Source of the DNA: Fontisphaera persica
GTDB lineage: Bacteria; Verrucomicrobiota; Verrucomicrobiia; Limisphaerales; Fontisphaeraceae
NCBI RefSeq assembly: GCF_024832785.1
Contig: NZ_CP116615.1
Location: 2,356,001 to 2,420,000 of the forward strand
DNA length: 64,000 nucleotides
Direction: 5' to 3'
Part shown: positions 14,020 through 28,820 of the stretch, piece after piece
Layout of the letters: every line of letters begins with the position of its first letter
How positions within the stretch are numbered: position 1 is the stretch's first letter
Position numbers and translations under genes: made by a program
The notes under the pieces: generated by a model
Told to the model about the DNA's origin: nothing
Database searches by the model: none
The model's input: only the letters and a program-made list of their open reading frames with translations

Positions 14020-15819
14020 TCAGCCCAAAGCGGCATCCGGGCCGCCCGCAGTCACCGGACGGACCAGCTCAAAATTGCACAAGCGCAGTTCAGGCTTGCC
14101 CAGGGTGTCCCGCACCAGGCGGTTCTCCGGGTCAAAGGAAATCAACAGATGCTCCGGCTCCAAATTCAGGTCTTCATAGCCGCACCGCTCAAAACGCCGG
14201 CGGGCGCGCTCCATCAGGTCCTCCATTTCCTCCGCGGTGATCAAACCCTGCGCGTATGCCTCGCGTACATTGATGCCCCGGAAATAACTCCCATCACTGA
14301 TGGCCAGCAGCACATCCGGGCCATTCCAGAATCCCCAAATCGAAATATAATCATGCCCCGGCTGCAACAAAGGCTCCCCATCTGGCATGCGCACGCTGGC
14401 AAATCGCTGGTATCGGCTGGGATCGGTGATTTGCCGCAAGTGGTCATTCCGGCTGCCGGTCATGTAAATGGCCCGCGGATACACCGTCCGCGCCCCGGCC
14501 GCGCTCAAACCCAGGGCGCACGCAAACTCTTCAAAGGGGCTGTTGAAACCATGCTGTACGATGCGCCGGGAACGCACGCTGTCATCCGGCACGTGCGGCG
14601 TGGTGCCCAGCCGGGAAACCTTCCACACCAGATTGATGTTGTCCTTGGTGCGGGTGAGGTAGGTTTCGCTCCGGTTGGACAACCGCTTTTTGGGCGTGCG
14701 CCGCCAGCGTTCCGGCAGGAAATAATTGAACAAATCCGGGTCCTTGCCCACCACCCAGAGCCGGCCGCCGGTGCTTTCCGCATTCCCGTAGATATAATCC
14801 ACCCCCAGGATGTTGACGGCTTTCAAATGCGCCGGCAGCGGTTTGCTGGTGTTGATTTCAAATCGCCGCGCCATGTGCTCCAGATAATATTGGCGGTTGA
14901 AGTTGGCGACCGCCTGCTCGTGCTCCGGCGTGCGCTCCAGCAACTCATAATCCACCACCGCATACACCACCTGCCGGTTGCGGTCCCGAAACAGCGTGAA
15001 ATCCGGCTGCGGCCGCACAATGATATGCTGCGGCTTCATGTCCACCATCCGGTAGCCCTTGTGTTCCAGCTCATGGTTGACCAGGCTTGTCACCGAGGCC
15101 AGAAACTCCTCCCGCGCCTCGCCGGTTAATTGGAACAAATTCGCCGTCTCCACCAGGTCCAGCCCCTTAATCCACCCATACAGCAGCACATACTGGCGCA
15201 GGATGTCTATTTCCACGCCGGGCGATTGGGCAATCTTGGCCGCGATGCGGTCCTGGGACCGGCCCGTCTGCCAGAGCTGCAAGCGCTCGCTGGGCACGTA
15301 AATGGCCAGGGGTTTTTGCGTGCGAATCCGAATCCGCGGCGGGCCATATTCCCCGCGCCGCATCTCCATCACCAGCGCAAACTCCTCAAAGGGACTGTTG
15401 AACTCGGCATTGATGAATTTGTTGACCGTCAGCGTGTCCAGGGGCACCACTTCACCCACGCGGGACCATTTAACGACCAGATTGACGGAAACCCCGGCCA
15501 CCGGCTTGGTGGGCACGCGATACACCGTGCTGGTGCCCACCAACCGCTCCCGTTTCGCCTCAAACCACTCCTTGCCAAACCAGTTCTCCGGCAATAAATG
15601 CTCCCAGTACGGCAGGCCGTATCGCGTCAGGTACAACTCGCCGCCATCCGACGTCTTGAGATGCGTGTAATCCACCCCCAGCAGCGAAACCGCCATGGCC
15701 TGCCGCGGCAATCGCGCCAGTTGCCGCACGGAAAACGGCGTCCGCGCCTCCTCACCGGCAGCAGCTTCACCGGTGCGTTGCCGGGCCTCGGCAGCAATAT
15801 CAGCCCACGGCCTCTTCAT
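14020..15819 (-). CDS. Tandem-duplicated kinase-like protein (second half degenerate)
   Basis: 599 residues made of two copies of one about 290-residue unit, seen from aligned landmarks: SLLGVDYTHL / NILGVDYIYG, VNLVVKWSRVG / INLVWKVSRLG, FNSPFEEFAL / FNSPFEEFAC, YRMVDMKPQHIIV / YEDLNLEPEHLLI, and AVVDYELLER / RLCNFELVRP. These fit a protein-kinase-like fold: beta-3 Lys (K117, K400), alpha-C Glu, a catalytic-loop Asp with Lys two after it (D260, K262) and a metal-binding DFG-like Asp (D290). In the second copy these become N552, E554 and N582, so it should be a pseudokinase. No transmembrane segment or signal peptide. Substrate unknown; lipopolysaccharide or small-molecule kinases are alternatives to a protein kinase. 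Confidence 0.7.
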   Translation of the reverse strand: MKRPWADIAAEARQRTGEAAAGEEARTPFSVRQLARLPRQAMAVSLLGVDYTHLKTSDGGELYLTRYGLPYWEHLLPENWFGKEWFEAKRERLVGTSTVYRVPTKPVAGVSVNLVVKWSRVGEVVPLDTLTVNKFINAEFNSPFEEFALVMEMRRGEYGPPRIRIRTQKPLAIYVPSERLQLWQTGRSQDRIAAKIAQSPGVEIDILRQYVLLYGWIKGLDLVETANLFQLTGEAREEFLASVTSLVNHELEHKGYRMVDMKPQHIIVRPQPDFTLFRDRNRQVVYAVVDYELLERTPEHEQAVANFNRQYYLEHMARRFEINTSKPLPAHLKAVNILGVDYIYGNAESTGGRLWVVGKDPDLFNYFLPERWRRTPKKRLSNRSETYLTRTKDNINLVWKVSRLGTTPHVPDDSVRSRRIVQHGFNSPFEEFACALGLSAAGARTVYPRAIYMTGSRNDHLRQITDPSRYQRFASVRMPDGEPLLQPGHDYISIWGFWNGPDVLLAISDGSYFRGINVREAYAQGLITAEEMEDLMERARRRFERCGYEDLNLEPEHLLISFDPENRLVRDTLGKPELRLCNFELVRPVTAGGPDAALG

Positions 15820-16367: not shown

Positions 16368-16907
16368 CTACTGATTATGCCGCAAGAGCGACAATAATAT
16401 CCACAACACCACCAAAAATGCCCCTACCAACAGCAAAAAACGGTTGCGCGCCACGCGCTTTTCAAAACGCAATGCCACCGGCTCGCGCAATCCCCCGTAC
16501 GCCAGATATTTGACCAGGTGGGGATTGCTCGGCGGTGGCGGCCGCCACCAGGCAGTCCACCGCTGCCACCATCCAACCAGATCAAACTTGCGCACGCCCA
16601 ATTCATTGTACAACTCCGGATGCGCCGCCGACTCGGGCACCACAGCCGGTGGTTTGGGGGCCGGGCGCGGCATCGTGGCGGCAGGTGCAGGACGGGAAAC
16701 CGGGGCGCGTTCCGCCACCGGCGCGGCAGGCGCAGGCTTCGCTGGACTCACCCGCTGGGACACGGGGTTGACCGGCCCGGGGCCTGCCGGGGACGCAGGC
16801 AACTGGGCGCTCAACCGGCGAATGCGCGCCTCCAATTCCGCGATTTGGATATTGAGGTCGCGCTCGCGGGTTTGCAAAGGGTCTGATTTGCGTCGAAGCC
16901 AGCCCAT
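16368..16907 (-). CDS. Coiled-coil, proline-rich, C-terminal membrane-anchored protein
   Basis: 179 residues, no known family. Residues 12-36 are a short coiled coil (LQTRERDLNIQIAELEARIR). A Pro/Ala linker spans about 38-90, then a globular-looking region with WWQRWTAWWRPPPP, and a single transmembrane helix at the very end (FLLLVGAFLVVLWILLSLL) followed by RHNQ. No signal peptide, so the protein is tail-anchored with the bulk in the cytoplasm. Starts 3 bp after the stop of the next upstream gene, which has the same unusual topology; the two are probably partners. Confidence 0.6.
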   Translation of the reverse strand: MGWLRRKSDPLQTRERDLNIQIAELEARIRRLSAQLPASPAGPGPVNPVSQRVSPAKPAPAAPVAERAPVSRPAPAATMPRPAPKPPAVVPESAAHPELYNELGVRKFDLVGWWQRWTAWWRPPPPSNPHLVKYLAYGGLREPVALRFEKRVARNRFLLLVGAFLVVLWILLSLLRHNQ

Positions 16908-16910
16908 GCG

Positions 16911-17594
16911 TCACTTGCCACGCAATAACAAGGTCGTAATCAACAATAATAAAGCCAGCACCAGCGGCCAGGTCAGCCCCAGTCCCACCCGCGTCAACGC
17001 CCAAAAATCCAGGCTGGTCCATGCCGGCGGGCCCTGCTGAGATGCCGCCGCGGCTGATTCTCCCCCTGCGCTTTCCGGCGCCGGCGGATTCAGCAAGGGA
17101 AACTTCAACCGCGCGCTGTTCCATTCCATGCGCGCATTCTCCAACGTGGTCAACGCGCGCGTCATTTCACTCTGGAAATTTTCCGCGGTCCATGACTCCT
17201 CCTGAATGGCCTGGATTTTGTTCAACGCCTCGCGCAATCCCGCAATGGCCTTCGCCATTTGCTCGGCCTCCTGCCGCGCGGAAAATTCCGCCTCCTCCAG
17301 CAAACCCAGGCCGCGGGTCAAGTGCCGCACCATTTCCTCGCGGCCAGTCTTCCACTCCGCCTGACGCCGGCGTGTCTCCTCCAGGGCGGCCCGCTCCCGC
17401 TCGAGTTGCTCCTGCGCCTGGCGCAGCCGCGCCAGCTCCGCCTGCACCTCGGCCACCTGCGACTCCACTTCCTCGCGCGTCGGGGCGCGGCCTGCCCCGG
17501 AAGTCGAGGCCGTCGCCTCACCTGGGGCCGGGGAGCGGCGTCCGTCTTGATAGTCCAAATCCACAAATTCGGATGGATCCAATTTGGAAGCCAT
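16911..17594 (-). CDS. Long coiled-coil tail-anchored membrane protein
   Basis: 227 residues. A disordered N-terminus is followed by a strong heptad coiled coil from about 42 to 150 (Glu/Gln/Arg/Leu-rich, e.g. AELARLRQAQEQLERERAAL). A C-terminal transmembrane helix (LVLALLLLITTLLL) lies just before RGK. No enzymatic motif. Tail-anchored like the gene 3 bp downstream, suggesting a membrane scaffold pair. Ordinary length for such linkers; specific role unknown. Confidence 0.6.
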   Translation of the reverse strand: MASKLDPSEFVDLDYQDGRRSPAPGEATASTSGAGRAPTREEVESQVAEVQAELARLRQAQEQLERERAALEETRRRQAEWKTGREEMVRHLTRGLGLLEEAEFSARQEAEQMAKAIAGLREALNKIQAIQEESWTAENFQSEMTRALTTLENARMEWNSARLKFPLLNPPAPESAGGESAAAASQQGPPAWTSLDFWALTRVGLGLTWPLVLALLLLITTLLLRGK

Positions 17595-17747: not shown

Positions 17748-18380
17748 TTATTCCTCCCCGAGGGCAATCTTTAACAGTTCCTCCTGCGTCCAATTGGTGT
17801 CCCGCCCCGCGGTGGCTTTGCGGATGGGAGCCACCTGCTCCGGCCGCACCGGCGACGCCTGGTTGCCCCATGCCTTGTTCATGCGGATGTAGGTGAGAAC
17901 CGCCGCAATCTGCTCGTCATTCAAAGTATCCTTCCAGGGCAACATGACGTTGTTAAACGTGTACGCCTTGCCACTGACCGTGATGGGTCCGGCCATCCCA
18001 TTCAGCACAATCCGGATGATGCGGTTAGGATGTTCAGCCAGCACCCAATCCGACCCCGCCAGCGGCGGCGCCTGAATGGGGCTGCCCAAACCATCGGCCT
18101 GATGGCAGGAAGCACAGTACGTCAAATAAATGCCGCGTCCCTTTTCAAACAAGGGGTCCGTGGCGGGTTTGGGATTCGCCTCCTCCACCTTCTGCAGGGA
18201 CGCATAGGGCGTGTACACCCGGGGGTTGAAACCGCCCGCCTGCCGGTCCAGGCTCATGGTGGCCACGTAAAACAAAATGCCCAGCAAGCCCACCAGCCAC
18301 ATCGGCGTGGGGGCGGTCCCGGCCTGTGGCTCGGCGTCCTCAGGCAGGGGGCGAAGCTCCATGGGAGAGGGCGCGCTCAT
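17748..18380 (-). CDS. Membrane-anchored monohaem cytochrome c (last gene of act operon)
   Basis: 210 residues with one N-terminal transmembrane anchor (MWLVGLLGILFYVATMSL) and one haem c motif CASCHQADGLG (about residues 89-99). The probable distal Met is in NNVMLPWKD. Resembles the cytochrome c domain of cbb3 oxidase subunit III (CcoP) but with one haem instead of two. Start overlaps the stop of the CcoO-like gene by 4 nt. Likely accepts electrons from the alternative complex III module and passes them to an oxidase or soluble cytochrome. Confidence 0.85.
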   Translation of the reverse strand: MSAPSPMELRPLPEDAEPQAGTAPTPMWLVGLLGILFYVATMSLDRQAGGFNPRVYTPYASLQKVEEANPKPATDPLFEKGRGIYLTYCASCHQADGLGSPIQAPPLAGSDWVLAEHPNRIIRIVLNGMAGPITVSGKAYTFNNVMLPWKDTLNDEQIAAVLTYIRMNKAWGNQASPVRPEQVAPIRKATAGRDTNWTQEELLKIALGEE

Positions 18381-19147
18381 GGCGTGGAAGAGTTGACGGC
18401 GGACGGCGGCACGGCATTCGTGCCTCCCGCCTGGTTGACCTGGTTGGTTTTCCCGGCGGCTGCAGCCGCCTCAGCCGCGCCCGGCAGCGGCGCCTCAAAT
18501 ACCGGGGCATCCGCCCGCAAGCTCAGCAAGTAAGCCATCAACGCCCGGGCACGCGGGCCGGGTACGATTTGCTCAAGCCAGCGTCCCGGTCCTGGCTGAT
18601 TCACTTGCAACGCCAGCGGGTCCGCCTCCTGACCAGGGCGCAGGGGCCGCCGCTCAAACAAAAAGGCATAAGCAGGCATGACCGAAGCAGGCGCCAACTG
18701 CCGTGGATTGTATAAGTGCAGGTACAACCGCCGCTCCAATTCCTCCACGTGATTGGAGTCGGTTAAAAATTTCCATGGTACCGCAAATCGCGCCGGCTCG
18801 CGCATCGCCAGGTTGGCCAGGTCCGGCCCCATCCGCAGGTTGCCCACCAGCACCGGCCGGTCCGCCAGGAAATCCTGCGCCACCGTCCGCCGCACCCCCC
18901 AGCCGCGCTCAAGGTCACCTTCCGGGCGCACCTGCTGCGTGTGGCACTCGGCGCAACCCAGTGACCGATAGACCTGCAGCCCTTGCTGTGCCAACCCCGG
19001 CCGCCCTGTGGGATAATCCGGTTGTGGGGCCGGCTGGGGCACCGGCTCCAATCGGCCCAACTGCAACTGCGGCGTCATCACCAGCCCGGCCCAGGACAGC
19101 GCCAGCGTCAGAAACGCACTCAAGAAAATCAGCGCCCCGTGATTCAT
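18377..19147 (-). CDS. CcoO-like monohaem cytochrome c (cbb3 oxidase subunit II type)
   Basis: 256 residues from MNHGALIFL, which overlaps the stop of the CcoN-like gene (ATGA). N-terminal membrane anchor, then GLQVYRSLGCAECHTQQVRP with the haem c motif CAECH, then the family blocks RRTVAQDFLADRPVLVG and GPDLANLAMREP, and VMPAYAFLFERRPL supplying the axial Met. These blocks match FixO/CcoO subunits. The C-terminus is Ala/Asn/Gln-rich and probably disordered. Subunit II normally feeds electrons to haem b in CcoN; here its partner lacks the ligands. Confidence 0.85.
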   Translation of the reverse strand: MNHGALIFLSAFLTLALSWAGLVMTPQLQLGRLEPVPQPAPQPDYPTGRPGLAQQGLQVYRSLGCAECHTQQVRPEGDLERGWGVRRTVAQDFLADRPVLVGNLRMGPDLANLAMREPARFAVPWKFLTDSNHVEELERRLYLHLYNPRQLAPASVMPAYAFLFERRPLRPGQEADPLALQVNQPGPGRWLEQIVPGPRARALMAYLLSLRADAPVFEAPLPGAAEAAAAAGKTNQVNQAGGTNAVPPSAVNSSTP

Positions 19148-20595
19148 GCCGCCACCTCCCGCGCTGGTGATGTGGGTGCCGGACAGCAGCTCGTGCGCAC
19201 CGCTTGAAACATGGCCCGTGACCCCTGATAGATTACCGCCCCGGCCAGCGCCGTCCCGCCCACCGTCATGATTAACAACCCCAGCCCGGCCAGTTTCAAA
19301 CCCGGCAGCGCCGCCGTGACTGCGGTCATGAATGGCTGCCGCCAATCGGCCAGGACGCCAGCCTGAGCGTTGCCAGCCCACAGCAACCCGAGGGCCCACA
19401 ACACCGCGCCAGCCATCAGGCATCCGGCCATGCCGCGGCTCAAGGTGCAGGTGCACGCTTCACCTCCGCAGGCCAGCCGGGGGACCACATACATGAACCC
19501 GCCCGCCAAAACCGGCAACGCAAAACCCAGCATCCATAACGTGGGCCGCGCCGCGGTCAGAAAAGTCAGATTCACCACCTCCTGCAGGGCTGGCCGCGAT
19601 ACCGCCGCCTGCCACACCACCGCCACCACCCACATCAACGCCCCAAACAAACTCAACCCCAGCCCCGGCTGCCGCCACAAACCCCGATATTGGCCGCCCA
19701 GGGTCTGATGCAGATTCAACGCCAGCGCCAGGGCGGCCACCAACATGAGCAGGTCAGCCACCGCGCTCACCGCCGGCAGCCAGCGCGGCACCGGCAGCCC
19801 AAAATGAAATCCGCCAGCCGTGCCAAAGACCGCCACCACCCAGAAAACCGTCTTACTCATCGCCACGCTATGCAGGGGCCGCCCGCTGTAACGCGGCACG
19901 AAATAAAACACCGCCGCCAGCCCCGCCGCGGAAAGCCAGAGCACCAGGAGATTATTGGCCAGCCACGTGCCGGCCACCACTTGCATCACCCCGCGCGGCG
20001 GCGCGCAATGCAGCAACACCAGCCCGACGGTCATCAGCCAGAACAACCAAAAGACCCCCGCCATGGCCCACCATTGCGCGGGATACACCGCCGGCCGCGC
20101 CCGTTGCTGCAAGGTGAACCACGCGCTCACCCCCAGCGCCGCCAGTCCCGCCCACATGACCCCGCTCCCATAAATCGGCGCGCCCCACAACGGATAGCCC
20201 GTCGCATCCCCCGCCAAAATGCCCACCGTCCCCAATATCACGCCCAAGTTCCACAGCGCTCCCCCCAGGCACGTCAGCCAGCGCTGTTGCAAGCCCACAC
20301 CTCCGAGCCGTGCGAGCATCCATAATCCCAGCGCCAACCCAGCCTGGGTGGCAAATCCGTAAAACAACACATGCTGCGCCGCGGGCCACAATCGGCCATA
20401 AGAGTTCCAGGCGGACGTCCCCAAGGCCCCGGGAAAGAGCAACTGTCCCCAGGCCCATGCCATGAGAACCAAGCCCAGCGCCAGCCAGCCCGCCGCCTTG
20501 GCCAGCAGCCACAACACCGGCCAGCGCGACACCGCATCCACTTCCGCGGCGCTCCGGGGGGACGGGGAGGCTGAAGGTGCAACACTCATATTCAT
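19144..20595 (-). CDS. CcoN-like haem-copper oxidase subunit I homologue lacking metal-ligand histidines
   Basis: 483 residues, about 12 transmembrane helices. Homology to cbb3 subunit I is visible in blocks such as SYGRLWPAAQHVLFYGF (CcoN RPLHT region), AAVFYFVPRYSGRPLHS, VVNLTFLTAARPTLWMLGF (CcoN HVHSGALGW region) and GGFMYVVPRL. However, only five histidines exist (about 75, 196, 242, 264, 296). The low-spin haem position reads PAAQ, the CuB helix reads GTWLANNL instead of W-x-x-x-H-N, and the paired haem histidines read ARPT. So oxygen reduction is not expected; a structural or electron-relay role in an alternative complex III supercomplex is more likely. Subunits II and a cytochrome c follow in the operon. 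Confidence 0.8.
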   Translation of the reverse strand: MNMSVAPSASPSPRSAAEVDAVSRWPVLWLLAKAAGWLALGLVLMAWAWGQLLFPGALGTSAWNSYGRLWPAAQHVLFYGFATQAGLALGLWMLARLGGVGLQQRWLTCLGGALWNLGVILGTVGILAGDATGYPLWGAPIYGSGVMWAGLAALGVSAWFTLQQRARPAVYPAQWWAMAGVFWLFWLMTVGLVLLHCAPPRGVMQVVAGTWLANNLLVLWLSAAGLAAVFYFVPRYSGRPLHSVAMSKTVFWVVAVFGTAGGFHFGLPVPRWLPAVSAVADLLMLVAALALALNLHQTLGGQYRGLWRQPGLGLSLFGALMWVVAVVWQAAVSRPALQEVVNLTFLTAARPTLWMLGFALPVLAGGFMYVVPRLACGGEACTCTLSRGMAGCLMAGAVLWALGLLWAGNAQAGVLADWRQPFMTAVTAALPGLKLAGLGLLIMTVGGTALAGAVIYQGSRAMFQAVRTSCCPAPTSPAREVAA

Positions 20596-20611: not shown

Positions 20612-20980
20612 TTACTCGTAGGGGTTCACCGGCGGCGGGGGCTTGGCGGAAGCCTTCTCCAGCCGCTGCAACAGTTGCTTGCGCCCCAGCGCGGGGTCGG
20701 ACCACTCCCGCGCCACCATTTCCATCGCCCGCGTCACGGGCAGGCGCACCACCCCTTTGGTCTGGTCCACCCACCCATAATTCTCCAGCGCCTCATGATT
20801 CGCCGCGTTCAGCTCCGCCAGCGCCTTCGCCCGTTCTTCCGCGCGCCGGGCGTTCAAATCCGGCGGGCGGGTGTAATGAATCATCAGCCCCACCAGCAAC
20901 AGAATGGTCGCCAAAGCCGTCACCACCGCGGCGGCATTGGCCCAGCGCCGGCGGGAAATTGGGGATACGGTTTCGCTCAT
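20612..20980 (-). CDS. Small membrane protein of the act operon
   Basis: 122 residues from MSETVSP, chosen because AAAGGAGG lies 8 nt upstream. An ATG 18 nt further upstream precedes the RBS and is less likely. One N-terminal transmembrane helix (AAAVVTALATILLLVGLMIHY), then a periplasmic part with the block NYGWVDQTKGVVRLPVTRAM. I recall this YGWVD...RAME motif from small proteins in act/cox operons of Verrucomicrobiota and Acidobacteriota, without assigned function. It sits between actF and the CcoN-like gene, so it may help assembly or join the two modules. Confidence 0.75.
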   Translation of the reverse strand: MSETVSPISRRRWANAAAVVTALATILLLVGLMIHYTRPPDLNARRAEERAKALAELNAANHEALENYGWVDQTKGVVRLPVTRAMEMVAREWSDPALGRKQLLQRLEKASAKPPPPVNPYE

Positions 20981-20994
20981 CTGGACGCCTCCTT

Positions 20995-22233
20995 TCATTT
21001 GGCTGGTCCGGGTGCCGCCTGCGCCGGCGGCACATACACCCCCATCGTCTCGGCGATGCGCGGGTCCCGCTGCGGATAGGGTGGATGCGCCTGAAAATAC
21101 CGCAGGAACACCATGCCCAGCACCCCGGCCATGAACGCCAACGCCGCCACATCCAGCCAGTGCACCCGCAAACCGTCCGGATTTAACACCGGCTTGATGT
21201 TGAAGGTCATGTCGGCGTAATGCATCAGCCACGCCCACACACACATCGGCACCATCACCTGCAGCGACAGCTTGGCATCAATCCGCAGCAGCGCCAGAAA
21301 CGGCAGGAAAAAGTGGCCAAACAGGATGATTAATCCCAAATCCCACCACGTCCCCTGTTCGCGCTGCACGTACCAGAAGGTTTCTTCCGGGATGGCCGCG
21401 TTCCAAATCAGGAAGTACTGCGAAAACGCGATGTACGCATAAAAAACCGTGAATGCAAAAAACAGCACGCCGGTGTCGTGGAAGGTCTTGGTCTGCACCA
21501 CCGCCTGCAACGGCCCGGCCTGTTTCAGCTTCAAGGCCAGCAAATACGTCGTGGCCAGCGTCACCCACACGCTGCCCGCAAAGTAATACACGCCGTACAT
21601 CGTGGAGAACCACTGATGCTGGAGCGACTTCATCCAGAAAATCGCCCCCAGCGTCAGGCTGATCGCAAACAGAAAAATCCCCGCCGCCGACCAACGCCGC
21701 ATGGCAAAGGTTTCAGCCGCCGCGCCCGTTTCATCCTGCCGCAGGGAATGCCGCCGCAACTGCCACGCCAGCAGCGACCACAACAGAAACAAGCCCGCCG
21801 ACACCGCCAGCCAGACCGGCTTGTTGAACAACACGTGCTTGACGTGCAGCGCATGGTCCGCGTGCGGGTCCAGCGCCATCCAGCGGTAGATGTAATGCTC
21901 GGGACTCGCCAAGAGCGCATTCAGCGCAATCGGCACAAATAACAGACCCAGCACCGGAAACAGCCAGGCCAGGTGCTCCCACACCCGCCGCAACGGCACC
22001 ATCCATTGCGAATCAAACAGGTGATGCATGATCACCAGAAACAACGCCCCCAGGCTCAGGCTCAGAAAAAACATGAAGGCCGTCAGGTACGAATACCCAA
22101 ACTGCTTCGGCCACCACACCGCGCCCGCCAGACACAACAGCCCGCCCGCGACCGCCAGCACCGCCGGCACCCGGCCCCATCGGCCCAGGTCCAGCTTCGC
22201 GGCGGGCGTTGGCAAATGTGAACTCGTGCTCAT
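20995..22233 (-). CDS. actF: Alternative complex III subunit ActF (quinol:cytochrome c oxidoreductase membrane subunit)
   Basis: 412 residues, about ten transmembrane helices (for example FMFFLSLSLGALFLVIMHH and WLAVSAGLFLLWSLLAW). Family markers include the His/aromatic-rich HALHVKHVLFNKPVW, SLQHQWFSTMYGVYYFAGS, FHDTGVLFFAFTVFYAYIAF and MHYADMTFNIKPVL, which match ActF and the related ActC/NrfD fold. It carries no cofactor itself and probably forms part of the quinol site and a proton path. Fifth subunit after actA-E in gene order, 21 bp after actE. Confidence 0.93.
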   Translation of the reverse strand: MSTSSHLPTPAAKLDLGRWGRVPAVLAVAGGLLCLAGAVWWPKQFGYSYLTAFMFFLSLSLGALFLVIMHHLFDSQWMVPLRRVWEHLAWLFPVLGLLFVPIALNALLASPEHYIYRWMALDPHADHALHVKHVLFNKPVWLAVSAGLFLLWSLLAWQLRRHSLRQDETGAAAETFAMRRWSAAGIFLFAISLTLGAIFWMKSLQHQWFSTMYGVYYFAGSVWVTLATTYLLALKLKQAGPLQAVVQTKTFHDTGVLFFAFTVFYAYIAFSQYFLIWNAAIPEETFWYVQREQGTWWDLGLIILFGHFFLPFLALLRIDAKLSLQVMVPMCVWAWLMHYADMTFNIKPVLNPDGLRVHWLDVAALAFMAGVLGMVFLRYFQAHPPYPQRDPRIAETMGVYVPPAQAAPGPAK

Positions 22234-22254: not shown

Positions 22255-22869
22255 TTACTTCAATTTGGCCCGCCATTCCGGCGGCACGTCATCCACCGTG
22301 CCCAGCCGGCTTAGTTGCAGGGCGCGCAGATACGCCACGATGGCCCACCGGTCGTCTATGCCTATCTGCGCCGCGTAACCGCTCATCAGGTTTTTGCCGT
22401 AACTGATGGTGTAAAACAGCTCGCCATCGGGCAGCTCCACAATTCGCTTGTCATGCAAATTGGCCACCACGCCCATGGCCCCGATTTTTTTGGTAATCCC
22501 GTTGCCGTCCGCCTGCGCCCCATGACACGGGGCGCAGTGAATGAGGAAGCGCTCCTGCCCCCGCGCCAGCATCGTGTGGGTCACCGCCGCCGGCAGCGCC
22601 TCCACAAAATTGGTCGTGCCTGGCACCCGGCCGGTGTTCCAGGGCGTCTCCGCATACGGCTCGCCGCGCGCAATGGTGCCCGCCGGCCGCGGTCGGCTGC
22701 CCCGCTGGTCCGCAAAAAATTCACTCTGGAACTGCGGCCGCTGCTTGGGCTGCCGCACCATGTCTGCAAATATTTCAATGGGCGGCCGTCGCGAGGTGCT
22801 GCCGCGGAATCCCGCAATGGCCACCACCGCCGCCACCACCGCCACAAAGGTTAGCAGGATGTATCGCAT
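22255..22869 (-). CDS. actE: Alternative complex III monohaem cytochrome c subunit ActE
   Basis: 204 residues. N-terminal membrane or lipid-type anchor (ILLTFVAVVAAVVAIAGF), then one haem c motif FLIHCAPCHGAQADGNG and an axial-Met region at GKNLMSGYAAQIG. Sequence around EIFADMVRQPKQRPQ is typical of ActE. It transfers electrons from the pentahaem subunit to an acceptor cytochrome or oxidase. Gap of 2 bp to actD. Confidence 0.93.
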   Translation of the reverse strand: MRYILLTFVAVVAAVVAIAGFRGSTSRRPPIEIFADMVRQPKQRPQFQSEFFADQRGSRPRPAGTIARGEPYAETPWNTGRVPGTTNFVEALPAAVTHTMLARGQERFLIHCAPCHGAQADGNGITKKIGAMGVVANLHDKRIVELPDGELFYTISYGKNLMSGYAAQIGIDDRWAIVAYLRALQLSRLGTVDDVPPEWRAKLK

Positions 22870-22871
22870 GG

Positions 22872-23411
22872 TTATTCCTCCACCACCTCGATGTGACGGC
22901 TCCCCAGGCGCTCCAGCATCTGGCGCGTTTCCGTCTCCGAATACTTCGGGTCATCCGTTTCGATGACCACGTAAAACTTGTCGTGCGTGGCCTGCTTGAA
23001 GCGCCGGTTCTTCAACAACGGATGATGCAACCGCGGCAGGCGGTTCAAAAACAACATCCCGAACAGCGAGCCAAACGCCCCCAGCAAAATCGTCAGCTCA
23101 TAACTGGGCGGAAACGAGGACAACGGACTGTAGTAGGGCTTGCCGCCCACCAGGATGGGATAATCCACCGCATTCATCCACCAGATCATCAACTGTCCCA
23201 GCGCAAACCCCGTGGCCCCGCCAAGGAACGTGAACCAGCCCACCGGCGAGTTCTTCAACCCCATGGCCCGGTCCATCCCGTGCACCGGAAACGGCGTGAA
23301 CACGTCCCAGCGCCGGAAACCGGCGTCGCGAATCGCCTCCGCGGCGCGCAGCACCGCCGCCGGCGTCTCAAACTCGGCCAGAATGCCGTACACCTGTCGC
23401 GGCTCGCTCAT
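22872..23411 (-). CDS. actD: Alternative complex III subunit ActD (DUF3341)
   Basis: 179 residues, DUF3341. Opens with [20 protein letters not shown] and [18 protein letters not shown], then two transmembrane helices around [14 protein letters not shown] and [18 protein letters not shown]. Ends with a cytoplasmic domain ([17 protein letters not shown]). ActD has no cofactor and stabilises the membrane part of the complex. Start overlaps the actC stop by 4 nt. Confidence 0.95.
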
Positions 23412-24856
23412 GCGTGATGCCCTCCTTCCCGGGCCCCGCCCAGCGGATGATGCGGGTCTGCCTGCGGCGTAATGCCCTTGACCTCACTGATGGCAATCAT
23501 CGGCAGGAATCGCATAAACAACAGGAACAAGGTCAGGAACAGCCCGAACGTCCCCACAAACGTCAGGATGTCCACCCACGTCGGAATGAAATAGCCCCAG
23601 TTGGACGGCATGAACTCCCGCGCCAACGTGGTGGCAATAATCACAAACCGCTCAAACCACATGCCAATGTTCACCACAATCGAAATGATGAACACTGCCC
23701 ACATGTTTTGCCGGATGCGCTTGAACCAGAACAACTGCGGCGAAATCACGTTGCAGGTGATCATGATCCAGTACGCCCACCAGTACGGCCCGAACGCCCG
23801 GAACTTGAACGCGTCCAGCTCATACGGGTTGCCCCCGTACCACGCGATGAAAAACTCCATCCCGTAGGCGTAGCCCACGATGGAGCCGGTCGCCAGCACC
23901 ACCTTGCACATCAAATCCACGTGCCGCTTGGTGATGATGTCCTCCAGGTGACACACCGAACGCAGCGGCACCAGCAGCGTCAACACCATCCCAAAGCCGC
24001 TGAAAATGGCGCCCGCCACAAAGTACGGCGGGAAGATGGTCGTGTGCCATCCCGGCAACTGCGACACCGCGAAGTCAAACGACACAATCGAGTGCACCGA
24101 CAACACCAGCGGCGTGGACAGCCCCGCCAAGAGCAGGTAAGCCTTCTCGTAATGGCTCCAGTGCCGGTTGGAGCCGCGCCAGCCCAGCGCAAACAAGCCA
24201 TACAAAATCTGCCGCAATTTCGTCTTTGCCCGGTCCCGCATCACCGCCAGGTCCGGAATCAACCCCATGTACCAGAACAGCACCGAAACCGTAAAATACG
24301 TGGACACCGCAAACACGTCCCATTCCAGCGGCGAGCGGAATTGCGGCCAGATGTTGTTGGAGGTGGGAATCGGCAGGAGCCACCACGCCAGCCACGGCCT
24401 CCCGGTGTGCACCAGCGGGAATATGCCGGCGCACATCACGGCGAAAATGGTCATCGCCTCCGCGGCGCGGTTGATGCTGGTGCGCCAGCGTTGCCGCAGC
24501 AAAAACAAAATGGCCGAAATCAGCGTGCCCGCATGGCCAATGCCAATCCAGAACACGAAATTGGTGATGTCCCACGCCCAGGCCACCGGATGATTCAATC
24601 CCCACACGCCAATGCCGGTGCTGATCAGGTACGCCAGCATCACAAAACACAGCACCATCACGGACGCGCTGATGCCAAACGCCACCCACCACCACCGCGG
24701 CGTTTTGCCCTCCGCCACCCCCGCAATATGATCGGTGATCCAGCCCAGCGAGCGGTTGTTCAGCACCAAGGGCTCCCGCTGCAGTTCAGGCGGCGGCGCC
24801 TCCACCCGCACCGTGGCCGCCGGATTCAGAGCCGTCGTTGAACTCACCTGGGCCAT
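23408..24856 (-). CDS. actC: Alternative complex III membrane subunit ActC (NrfD/PsrC family)
   Basis: 482 residues, NrfD-like integral membrane protein with ten predicted helices and the conserved N-terminal block [20 protein letters not shown]. Other marks are [56 protein letters not shown] and [17 protein letters not shown], all characteristic of ActC. Together with the Fe-S part of ActB it forms the quinol oxidation site. Its start shares one base with the actB stop (TAATG). Confidence 0.96.
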
Positions 24857-27800
24857 TAGTGACCTCCTTTCCCGGCGGCCGCGCCGTGCTTCTCCAACGG
24901 CGAGCCGTGCCGTTGGATGTACTCCTGGAGCGCCGCCGGATGCGGCTGTTCGGGATTGAAATCAGGCATACGTTCGTTGGGATTGCGCACCCGCGCCAGA
25001 TACGTGGTACGCGGGCGGGTATCCAGGTAACCTAACATGCTATAATTGTGGTCCAGTTTGCGTAATTGCGACACCGCGCTCTCCGGATCCGACACATCAC
25101 CAAAGACAATCGCCTCCGCCGGACACGCCTGCTGGCAGGCGGTCTTGGGAATCGTGCCCTCACTCTCGCGCAACCGCACCTCCCCCGAGGCGCGCGCCTT
25201 GACCTTCTGCGCGATTTTGGCCTGCTCAATGCGCTGAATGCAATAGGTGCACTTCTCCATCACGCCGCGCATCCGCACCGTGACCTCCGGATTGCGCGCC
25301 AGCTTCAACAAATCCCATTCGTCCGCCGGCACCGTCCCGCGGTCCGGGTCCTTGAACCACCGCGCCAGCTCCCACTGTCCCTCGCGATTCCGGCTGAACG
25401 GGCTGCGATACAAATCATCCTTGGGCCGGCGGTTGTAATCGAAAAAGTTGAAACGCCGGACCTTGTAGGGGCAGTTGTTGCTGCAATACCGTGTGCCCAC
25501 ACACCGGTTGTAGGTCATCAGGTTCAGCCCCTCGTCATTGTGCACCGTGGCGTTCACCGGGCACACATTCTCGCAAGGCGCATTCTCACAATGCAGGCAC
25601 ATCACCGGCTGGTAGGCCACCTGCGGATTGTCCACGCTCCCCGCATAATAACGATCCAGCCGCAGCCAGCTCATTTCGCGCCCCTTGGTCACCTGCTCCT
25701 TGCCCACAATCGGGATGTTGTTCTCGCTCTGGCAGGCCACCATGCAGGCCGTGCACCCCACGCACGCCGTCAAATCCACCACCATCCCCCATTGATGCAT
25801 CCCCGTCAGCGGCGGCCGCGGATAAATCGGCCGCGGCTGCCCGCTGGCGTCCCGCGGAATATGCGCCGTGTGTGAGGGCGCATCTAAATCCATGTGCTTC
25901 GCAAACTGCGGATGCTGGTCAAACTGCGCCTTGTTGATTTCGCGCACCAGCGGCCGTCCCTCCATGGCCCCGTGTTCCTGCGTGCTGGCCAGTTGCCGGG
26001 TCACTCCGGGCAACACCCGCACCTGCGCCCCACCCGCAAAATGAGCCTCGCTGCCTTTAACCTGATAAGCGTTGAAACCCGCCGGCGTCCCATCTGCCAG
26101 CCGCCCAATCCGCCCGGTCTTCTCTCGCCCATAACCCAGCGGCAGCCCCAGCACAAAATCCGCCATCCCCGGCTGTATCCAGACCGGCCCGCTAACTTTG
26201 GCCCCGTTGAGGGTGACCTCCACCACCTGATTGTAAAACAAGCCCTTTTCTGCCTTCGGCCCGCGCGCCTTTTCATCAAATTCATCCACCCCCAACGCCC
26301 GGGCTGTGGCCGGACTCATGAGAATTGCATTGTCCCACGTCAACTTGGTGATGGGGTCCGGCGTTTCCTGCAGCCAGCCGTTGTTGTTGAAGCGCCCGTC
26401 ATCCAGGCTGTAACTGCGCTGAAACACCAGCTCCAGACTCTGCGCCGACGGCCCGGCGGCCGACCGCGCCGAGGCCACCGCCTGTTGCACAGCGTTGACC
26501 CGCAACTGGCCGCTCACCGGCGCCGCGGCCGTGCCCGCCTGGAAGCCATCGTGCAAAAACTTCTTCCACGCCTCCTCCTGGCGGCCATGCAACGCAAAAT
26601 AGGTCTCACGGACAATGTCGTATGGCCGCGTCGTCTCCAGCCCCGCCAGCCGCGCCAGCACCTCCAGCTCGGTTATTCCGCCGAAAAGCGGCTCAATCAA
26701 CGGTTGCACCGGCACCAGCGTGCCGTCCGCCGTCCGCGCATCCCCCCAGCTCTCCAGGTAGTGCAACTGCGGCAGATGCCAGTCGCAGTTCACGCTGGTT
26801 TCATCCTCGTAATACCCCAGCCGAATCACCCGCCGCGCCTGCCGCTGCGCCGCCGCCCAGTTCAATGCCGCAGGCGCCGTATAGGCGGGGTTGCCCCCCA
26901 GCACCACCAGCGTGTCCACCTGCCCCGCTTTCAAGGCCGCCGCCAAATCGGCCAGCGGCCCTTCAATTGGCGCTTCAGCCGGCAGCAGCACCACCGTTTG
27001 GTTCAAGTTGTTGAGCGCGGCATTGACCAGATGCGCCAGCAGATGCACCACCACGGGCTGCCGATAACCCGCCATGACCAGCCCATTTTTGCCCTGGCTC
27101 ACCAGGTCCCGGGCGCATTCTTCCACCCATTTGGCGTGCGCGGCCACCGGCTGCGCCAGAGGTTTGAGCACGTCCACCAGCTCGCTGAAACGCCCCGTTT
27201 GCTGCAACACCGCCAGAGCCAGCGCCGCCGCAAAGGCCTGCACCTGTGACGCCGGCAGCCGCAAACGATGGTCTGCATTCGCCCCCGTGAGCGATAACAA
27301 CGGCTCCACCACGTACAGCCGGTTCATCACATCCCCCGGCTTGCGCACGCGCCGCCCGCGGGCAAACCGCCGCACATGCAGGTAAGCATCCTCCTCTGCG
27401 CCCAGAAAATCCGCATCCAGCGACACTATCACCCGTGCCGCATCAAACTTGAAGTAGGGCCGCACCGGCTGCCCAAAGGCCAGCGTGGCGGCCTGCCGGT
27501 GAATGTCAAAATCCACCGCCTCATGCACAAACCAGCGCGCCCTGGGCAGACGCTGCCGCAGGGCCTCCTGCAACCGCCGCCGCGAAGGCGAGCTGCTCCG
27601 CTCCATCAAAAAGCACCAGCCCTCCCCCTGCTTCTGCGCCGCCTCCCGGCTGGCTGCCGCCAGCATGTCCAGCGCCTGCTCCCGCGAGCGCACCTGGCCC
27701 CGCTCCAAAAAGCGCATGGCCCGGTCCGGGTCATACAAATTCAGCAGCGACGCTTGCGCAAATGGATCCGTGGCCCCGTTGCTGTCCGGATGCAGCGCGT

Positions 27801-28173
27801 TGCCCTCAATCTTGGTGGGCCGCCCGTCATGGCTCTTGACCACCAGCGGAATCGCGCTGCCCCGCGTGGGATACGCCGTCGCATAATACACCGGCACGCC
27901 GTGCACATAGTTCTCCGGCTGTTTGCCAAACGGCATGATTTTTTCCTCCGGCCGCCGGCAGCCCGTCATGCCCAGCCCCGCCAGCAAAAACGAGGCGGAC
28001 ATGATTTTCACAAAATGTCGGCGCGTCAGCGGGTCCGTCAGCTCGCTGGCGCCCGCCGGAAACTCACGCTCAACCCACTCGCGAAATTCAGGGCGCTCGG
28101 CCAGCTCGTCCAGGCTGCGCCAGTACTTCGGGCCGGTCTCGGGTTCAGGACAAGGAGGGGGAATCGTCTTCAT
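24856..28173 (-). CDS. actB: Alternative complex III subunit ActB (molybdopterin-oxidoreductase-like fused to 4Fe-4S ferredoxin domain)
   Basis: 1105 residues from the ATG that overlaps the actA stop (ATGA). N-terminus: a Tat-like RR at 51-52 ([19 protein letters not shown]) ending at Cys72, fitting a lipoprotein anchor. Residues about 75-750 resemble molybdopterin oxidoreductases ([19 protein letters not shown]) but lack the N-terminal Fe-S cysteines and probably bind no Mo cofactor, as known for ActB. The C-terminal third is a ferredoxin-type domain with four cysteine clusters: [37 protein letters not shown] and CTYCIQRI with ACQQACPAE. It relays electrons from quinol to the haem subunits. 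Confidence 0.96.
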
Positions 28174-28820
28174 CGGTGGCAGGCGGAGCAATGTTGGGAA
28201 GGATTGACTTGCCAGTCACGCACCGCTTTCTGCGCCCAATCCTTGGGCAGGTGCTGATGCGGATCCCAGGCCAGATCCGTCACCTTGTCCAGCGGCCGCA
28301 AATTCGGCTCCGGCTGCCGGTGACAGTCCAGGCAAAACGCCATGCTCAATGGCTGGGCATGCCGCACCTCTTCCATTTGATGAATGTTGCCGTGACAGCT
28401 CAAACAGCTAATCCCGCGATTCACATGCACCGCGTGGTTGAAATAGACATAATCCGGCAGTTTGTGCACCTGCACCCATGGAATCGGCCGCCCCGTCTGC
28501 GCGCTCTCCCGCACCAACGCCAGCCGCGGGTCATCCTTCAACACCTGGTTGTGGCAGTTCATGCAGGTGGCCGCCGCGGGAATGTTGGAATACCACGATT
28601 TCTCCACCCCGCTGTGACAATAACGGCAATCCATCCCCAACTGCCCTACATGCGTGGCGTGCGAAAAAGCCACTGGCTGGATGGGCGTGTACCCCACGCG
28701 GGTGTACTTGGGCGTGAAATAATACCACAAAGCCGCCACCGCCCCACCCCCAAACAATAAAAGAGACATGAGGGCGTAAATCGGCAGCCGGTTGGTCCAC
28801 TTGGGAAATACATCCGACAT
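28170..28820 (-). CDS. actA: Alternative complex III pentahaem cytochrome c subunit ActA
   Basis: 216 residues, first gene of the operon. One N-terminal transmembrane helix (YALMSLLLFGGGAVAALWYYF), then five CxxCH haem motifs: CRYCH, CMNCH, CLSCH, CLDCH, CSACH. The block VAFSHATHVGQLGMDCRYCH is the standard ActA start. Electrons pass from ActB through these haems to ActE. Upstream is an AT-rich region with a short direct repeat, where the operon promoter must lie. Confidence 0.96.
   Translation of the reverse strand: MSDVFPKWTNRLPIYALMSLLLFGGGAVAALWYYFTPKYTRVGYTPIQPVAFSHATHVGQLGMDCRYCHSGVEKSWYSNIPAAATCMNCHNQVLKDDPRLALVRESAQTGRPIPWVQVHKLPDYVYFNHAVHVNRGISCLSCHGNIHQMEEVRHAQPLSMAFCLDCHRQPEPNLRPLDKVTDLAWDPHQHLPKDWAQKAVRDWQVNPSQHCSACHR

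Follow-up and report, generated by a model that had tools for sequence, protein, structure and literature searches.

The metal ligands are what ordinarily define subunit I of the haem-copper oxidases. What role is left to a homologue that has lost them? This question is raised by ccoN*, a gene in the window (the whole 64,000-nucleotide stretch of Fontisphaera persica DNA analysed here) that follows the genes for alternative complex III (ACIII). The reading favoured here, at a probability of roughly 0.6, is that its product is a pseudo-enzyme, a cofactor-free platform that would link ACIII, by way of the CcoO-like protein and the cytochrome c encoded beside it, to a separate oxidase; we infer the docking, the electron route and the supercomplex.

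Table 1. Genes of the act-cco operon in the window
Feature	Position	Strand	Basis
ccoN* (ligandless haem-copper oxidase subunit I homologue, 483 aa, 12 TM)	19144..20595	minus	ORF, Pfam, alignment, structure prediction
CcoO-like mono-haem cytochrome c (CAECH, MPAY retained)	18377..19147	minus	FixO PF02433, 58.7 bits
Mono-haem cytochrome c (CASCH)	17748..18380	minus	motif; N-terminal TM judged by eye
orfX, small protein in ActG's place after ActF	20612..20977	minus	one TM by eye
ActF	20995..22233	minus	
ActE, mono-haem cytochrome c	22255..22869	minus	
ActD	22872..23411	minus	
ActC, NrfD/PsrC-like subunit	23408..24856	minus	
ActB	24856..28173	minus	
ActA with five CxxCH motifs	28170..28820	minus	

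The ten genes are tightly packed in the order actA-actB-actC-actD-actE-actF-orfX-ccoN*-ccoO-cytc, from 28820 down to 17748 (Table 1), and the ccoO start lies within the ccoN* stop codon (ATGA). ActG is a one-TM subunit according to passages of PMC5928083; the position of orfX after ActF and its single TM suggest that it may be ActG. The reading frame of ccoN* begins with ATG and contains no internal stop, so the frameshift that the initial annotation thought might hide ligands is absent. A frameshift or mis-read start is excluded for the window, as this frame is open and a genome of the same genus (L033) has an identical ligand state, including the one His discussed below. Sequencing error is unlikely for the latter reason.

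The CcoN-like topology and sequence that had been read from the window hold up well. CcoN* scores 57.3 bits against Pfam COX1 (cut-off 34.8), and its closest sequence match in the PDB is Pseudomonas stutzeri CcoN (3mk7_A). An AlphaFold2 model built from a 64-row alignment has 12 long helices (pLDDT 93.9, pTM 0.92). Foldseek places 3mk7_A first for this model (TM 0.85/0.88, rmsd 2.3), and VIA Z values fall from 48 for CcoN chains to 41 for NorB and about 34 for A-type subunits. CcoN* is thus predicted with high confidence to be a complete 12-helix CcoN fold. Identity as NorB was rejected, since His is absent from the homologous columns save for H264 and the fold is closer to CcoN. With C-type (cbb3) CcoN of P. 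stutzeri (3MK7) it shares the 12-TM fold, a full-length structural match, and CcoO and cytochrome c neighbours. The other marks of a catalytic C-type subunit I are missing: the haem b, haem b3 and CuB/Tyr residues, and a score of the expected size on the CcoN equivalog TIGR00780 (NCBI), where CcoN* reaches 38.7 bits, far under the cut-off of 583.15.

Residues are numbered as in P. stutzeri CcoN, from the alignment of CcoN* with 3mk7_A. The columns of H60 and H347, the low-spin haem b ligands, hold A73 and T352. H345, the haem b3 ligand, is replaced by R350, and Y251, the active-site Tyr, by G258. The CuB ligands are His 207, 257 and 258 (as given in a passage of PMC3578206); in CcoN* these columns hold N214, H264 and either a gap or F265. 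The protein has just five His in 483 residues (75, 196, 242, 264 and 296), as initially counted. Only H264 occupies a ligand column, that of H257; as ligands, H75 (in an N column), H196, H242 (a Y/H column) and H296 (an M/H column) can be dismissed because all lie off the ligand columns. The claim that the ligand His are lost therefore stands for five of the six and fails for the sixth. Placement of His 75, 242, 264 or 296 at ligand positions had been named as what would speak against it; H264 does so in part only, because one His cannot build the site. Judged from the aligned residues, loss of catalysis is near certain, with both the O2-reduction site and the low-spin haem b site absent, and O2 reduction would not be expected of a protein that differs in this way from 3MK7. 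The view of CcoN* as catalytically dead is thus upheld.

Counting intact and degenerate copies together, 214 of 286 genomes of the class contain a relative of the window protein; a first scan of genome contigs with the window protein as query had returned none. ActF, ccoN and ccoO lie together on one strand in all 40 fetched loci, and 36 of these have the full ten-gene order. The remaining four have no match for orfX or cytc, or have genes cut at an end. The position of ccoN after the full act set, described initially for the window, is steady behind actABCDEF in the loci read. A census set was assembled from the 40 fetched, 80 named and 40 further loci; in it are 143 different ccoN genes that each share a locus with an ActC-family match. 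One of them (L224) is unreadable at the ligand columns and was left out, so that 142 loci could be read.

None of the six ligands is retained in 70 of these loci, one in 32, two in 13, four in one, five in one and all six in 25. The intermediate states are L163, which retains four, and L185, which lacks H207 alone. The same His are thus missing in other Verrucomicrobiota, a point that had been marked for checking: 115 of the 142 sampled loci retain two ligands or fewer, two retain four or five and 25 retain six. These proportions are not frequencies in nature, because the sampling favours the ligandless group: L033-L072 and L185-L224 were picked among relatives of the window protein, and the pattern that yielded L105-L184 (at least 80 loci) was derived from ligandless proteins. 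Seven further loci, from families f48, f35 and f41, are all ligandless. Ligand loss is a recurrent family trait within Verrucomicrobiota and not a local accident.

The loss is concentrated in the ligand and Tyr columns. To compare them with the rest, 150 columns with conservation of at least 92% across the 25 intact relatives were scored in the 115 degenerate ones. Mean retention is 7% for the six ligand columns plus Tyr versus 60% for the other columns. Not one of 20000 random column sets is as poorly retained, so the ligand loss is not chance. Y251 is kept in 1% of the ligandless proteins, and no degenerate protein has all three CuB His together.

Binding of haem by other residues, with CcoN* itself relaying electrons, is a most improbable function. 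It could appeal to the persistence of H264 in the window protein and to five loci of family f31 (L196, L204, L209, L212 and L215) in which H60 and H347 are both retained and the CuB/b3 site is gone; on these residues, the five f31 genomes possibly encode a haem b-only CcoN. The window protein has no ligand pair among its five His, and it carries Leu and Met in the two columns where more than 50% of ligandless proteins still have His. The 70 loci that retain no ligand at all weigh in the same direction.

Trees were built from ccoN with the ligand columns removed, by methods termed 'quick' or FastTree, using 100 rows plus an outgroup and a hand-chosen 47 of the 143 rows. Two-state coding counted L163 (four His) and L185 (five His) as intact. 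On the ccoN tree the two states require five changes, all forced by starred branches, under two models. A single ancient loss is ruled out on this tree: placing all ligandless rows in one clade is rejected with a p-AU of 2.7e-5 for the 47 hand-chosen rows. On the tree of ActB/C/E/F, 12 changes are required, and starred branches force 11 of these; the figure becomes 17 losses if loss is irreversible. The lower figure of five is relied on here because the ActB/C/E/F tree is a FastTree with long branches and gene transfer is possible. Reading these changes as losses presumes an intact ancestor; on that assumption, the ligands would have been lost at least five times in ccoN's own tree.

In a rival reading, CcoN* is a decaying remnant without a role, left behind when an A-type aa3 oxidase took over. 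By comparison with the same-genus relative, ccoN* is indeed under the weakest constraint in the act-cco operon, with a dN/dS of 0.179 against 0.088 for ccoO, 0.033 for cytc and 0.023 for ActC. The rate of ccoN relative to ActC/ActF is 1.8-6.0 in nine of 14 ligandless pairs, faster than in any of seven intact pairs (0.95-1.6). In L122 and L133 the ligandless copy is divided between two ORFs, by decay or assembly error, and the G068 match includes one TAA. However, a dN/dS of 0.18 is well below 1 and, for a comparison of coding sequences, points to clear purifying selection on ccoN*. Five of the 14 ligandless pairs have rate ratios within or under the intact range, and the frame runs uninterrupted for about 470-500 codons in the great majority of the copies read. 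The predicted fold is complete and confident, the conserved columns other than the ligands are kept at 60% on average, and the gene has been retained after several independent losses. A remnant is accordingly an unlikely description, and retention of ccoN* for a structural role is likely.

The remnant reading also draws on ACIII clusters in which ccoN was not detected. No ccoN was found by profile in six fetched clusters (L229, L230, L233, L236, L240 and L241), and genomes G084 and G239 have no COX1 match, though ActC is present. A strict need of ACIII for ccoN is ruled out by the six clusters, and ccoN is thus not universally required.

If CcoN* does not reduce O2, other oxidases of the same genomes are candidates for this step. 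Labels such as 'A-type', 'B-type-like' and 'NOR-like' are read here from scores and motifs. The genome of the window contains two COX1 matches, ccoN* and an A-type coxA about 1.1 Mb away that is accompanied by coxB (with a CuA motif and no haem c), coxC, ctaB and ctaA. The search for a true coxA or ccoN elsewhere, proposed at the outset, thus has a positive answer. At least one further strong COX1 match is present in 40 of 41 genomes searched, with residues checked in the window's own genome alone. The exception, G244 (L036), belongs to the same family as the window genome; its sole COX1 match is ligandless, and a bd oxidase is present. As a control, in a set of 40 genomes just G003 (L191) has a lone COX1 match, and its ccoN is intact, as would be expected of working intact copies. 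Six more of 116 genomes (G040, G311, G314, G319, G338 and G344) have one match each, weaker than 1e-40. As a separate observation, the window's own genome (G000:C1:493541-494104), G013 and G244 have an open frame of 466-470 aa, of which the cytochrome bd subunit I family is matched over just its first ~190 positions.

In some loci the second oxidase is close at hand. In 18 of 143 loci (13 ligandless and 5 intact) the same strand carries an A-type coxA 1.5-5.9 kb downstream; 69 of the 143 loci extend to 8 kb in that direction. Such a coxA is found downstream in L234, L238 and L239 as well. None was seen near the operon in most loci, the window included. Fused haem c is absent from all 20 coxB found where the locus, or the window's own genome, has a ccoN module. 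Beside ACIII without ccoN, coxB has a fused haem c in two of three cases, both of one genus. The third, L230, has neither the fused haem c nor ccoN and counts against the idea that the module replaces this domain.

The partners of CcoN* keep their haem motifs. Intact CcoO-like and cytochrome c genes had been reported for the window, where both retain CxxCH; this motif is present in CcoO at 142 of 143 loci and in cytc likewise at 142 of 143. A Met-ligand motif is found beside ligandless ccoN in 93 of 115 ccoO and 81 of 115 cytc genes, and beside ccoN with four to six ligands in 26 of 27 and 21 of 27. Five haem motifs are present in ActA at 130 of 132 loci.

A bridge from ACIII to aa3 built on CcoN* is plausible. 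The ancestral operon would have combined ACIII with a C-type oxidase module of CcoN, CcoO and cytochrome c. In the window's lineage and several more, CcoN would then have lost the haem b, haem b3 and CuB sites and Tyr while keeping its fold. As a cofactor-free platform in the membrane, CcoN* may now dock its CcoO-like and cytochrome c partners to ACIII, with electrons passing from the ActA/ActE haems through the c haems of CcoO/cytc to CuA of a separate A-type aa3 oxidase. In its simplest form, a CcoN shell would keep the c haems of CcoO and cytc in place, with ACIII on one side and the CuA of aa3 on the other. Of the structural or relay role first suggested for CcoN*, bridging fits the clusters with coxA downstream; CcoN* itself is hardly a redox relay because no cofactor site is left in it, and only CcoO/cytc could be. 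G244 and L230 fit poorly to a simple ACIII-to-aa3 bridge.

Known supercomplexes provide a useful comparison. In the ACIII-caa3 system of Rhodothermus marinus and the ACIII-aa3 system of Flavobacterium johnsoniae, as here, oxidase genes often come after the ACIII genes. Passages of PMC5928083 and PMC8552683 propose direct electron hand-over from ACIII to the oxidase, the link being either a haem c domain carried by subunit II or an additional, sixth ActA haem that is mobile. Unlike those supercomplexes, the systems studied here have five ActA haem motifs, no haem c in the coxB found, and CcoO and cytc beside a CcoN that lacks its ligands; both proposed links seem to be missing. The ACIII-A2 caa3 superoperon of Acidobacteria likewise joins ACIII and an A-type oxidase in one cluster, and the passages of PMC8407424 that describe it mention no ccoN within.

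Two other functions would also leave CcoN* without cofactors. It could serve an enlarged ACIII as an ion or proton path or as a quinone-binding subunit, resembling the cofactor-free ActC and ActF, through which ion movement has been proposed (in a passage of PMC5928083). The kept fold and many kept positions suit such a function, which is nonetheless rather unlikely, as Y251 is nearly always lost and no conserved charged pathway stood out on unsystematic inspection. CcoN* could instead be an assembly or stability partner that helps CcoO and cytochrome c to enter the membrane or to mature, with no link to ACIII or an oxidase. The overlapping ccoN*, ccoO and cytc genes and a possible fusion in one genus (below) are in keeping with this. 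The steady position after the act genes in the loci read is not, and the suggestion appears improbable. The bridging platform is preferred to both.

A widespread, selected family of ligandless proteins implies that subunit I can hold a second, non-catalytic role, which is probably the building of respiratory supercomplexes. It also advises caution, since a ccoN annotation alone is insufficient to call cbb3 respiration. No description of a ligandless CcoN was met in the literature surveyed, which consisted chiefly of abstracts and passages.

There is one genus, g39, where the module may have taken a different form. A single polypeptide is encoded after ActF (L242 8070-10943 and L243 8396-11026). 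The match of its N-terminal membrane part to the profile of CcoN is weak (hhalign E 1.6e-5, probability 79%, from two sequences), and the C-terminal part carries CcoO-like and cytochrome c motifs. No COX1 match above the cut-off is found in any of ten g39 genomes. It is possible, as a lead from these sequences, that degenerate CcoN, CcoO and cytochrome c are fused here in one polypeptide.

Ligandless ccoN genes are also found in verrucomicrobial methanotrophs. In family f29, pmoA is present in nine of nine tested genomes, with three pmoA genes in G014. All ten f29 genomes read from genera g48 and g68 have a ligandless ccoN in which five of six ligands and Tyr are lost and the lone retained His is in the H258 column. 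Methanotroph loci with a ligandless CcoN beside ACIII are L234 (G014), L238 (G057) and L245-L254; in L234 and L238 the order is ActF, orfX and ccoN, then ccoO, cytc, coxA, coxC and coxB. The other COX1 matches, classed by score and motif, are two A-type, two B-type-like and one NOR-like in G014 and two A-type, one B-type-like and one NOR-like in G057. No further C-type subunit I is among the COX1 matches of these two genomes.

Published accounts describe the same neighbourhood differently. Passages of PMC8498564 state that ACIII genes directly adjoin a cbb3 oxidase in verrucomicrobial methanotrophs and name strain PQ17 as an exception to the joint presence of cbb3, aa3 and ba3; three oxidase types are also given in a passage of PMC10205796. 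The 'cbb3' beside ACIII is tied to high O2 affinity in a passage of PMC6688271. This 'cbb3-type oxidase', reported in such passages of PMC8498564 and PMC6688271 as a cytochrome c oxidase, has the genomic neighbourhood of the f29 ligandless genes, in which the ligands and Tyr are lost. The f29 genes are very probably the same genes. If so, the published cbb3 and O2-affinity assignment fails, and respiratory schemes for these methanotrophs appear to count a ligandless protein as an oxidase. The pmoA-bearing G007, where no ccoN was detected beside ACIII, might be strain PQ17. Methylacidiphilum fumariolicum SolV very probably carries the ligandless gene, and this cultured strain makes ACIII-to-oxidase hand-over without a fused cytochrome c directly testable.

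A broader proposal can be assembled from these cases. In Verrucomicrobiota, on at least five independent occasions, CcoN would have been recruited as a cofactor-free structural part of an ACIII respirasome, forming with CcoO and cytc a fixed bridge to aa3. The Methylacidiphilum 'cbb3' credited with high O2 affinity would be a dead protein that reduces no O2. In one further genus, CcoN would have been fused to CcoO and cytc to serve a non-haem-copper acceptor. Taken as a whole, this proposal is tentative, its chances lying slightly below even.

The ACIII-ccoN operon is also found in public MAG records that bear the names Akkermansia muciniphila, Klebsiella pneumoniae or Rhodospirillales (L116, L172, L178 and L158) and are probably mislabelled. 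Downstream of the operon in the window are two proteins with coiled-coil-like matches and a hydrophobic C-terminus (16368-17594). A conserved 599-aa protein with a dN/dS of 0.06 lies at 14020-15819. The order of these downstream genes is identical in the genome of the same genus.
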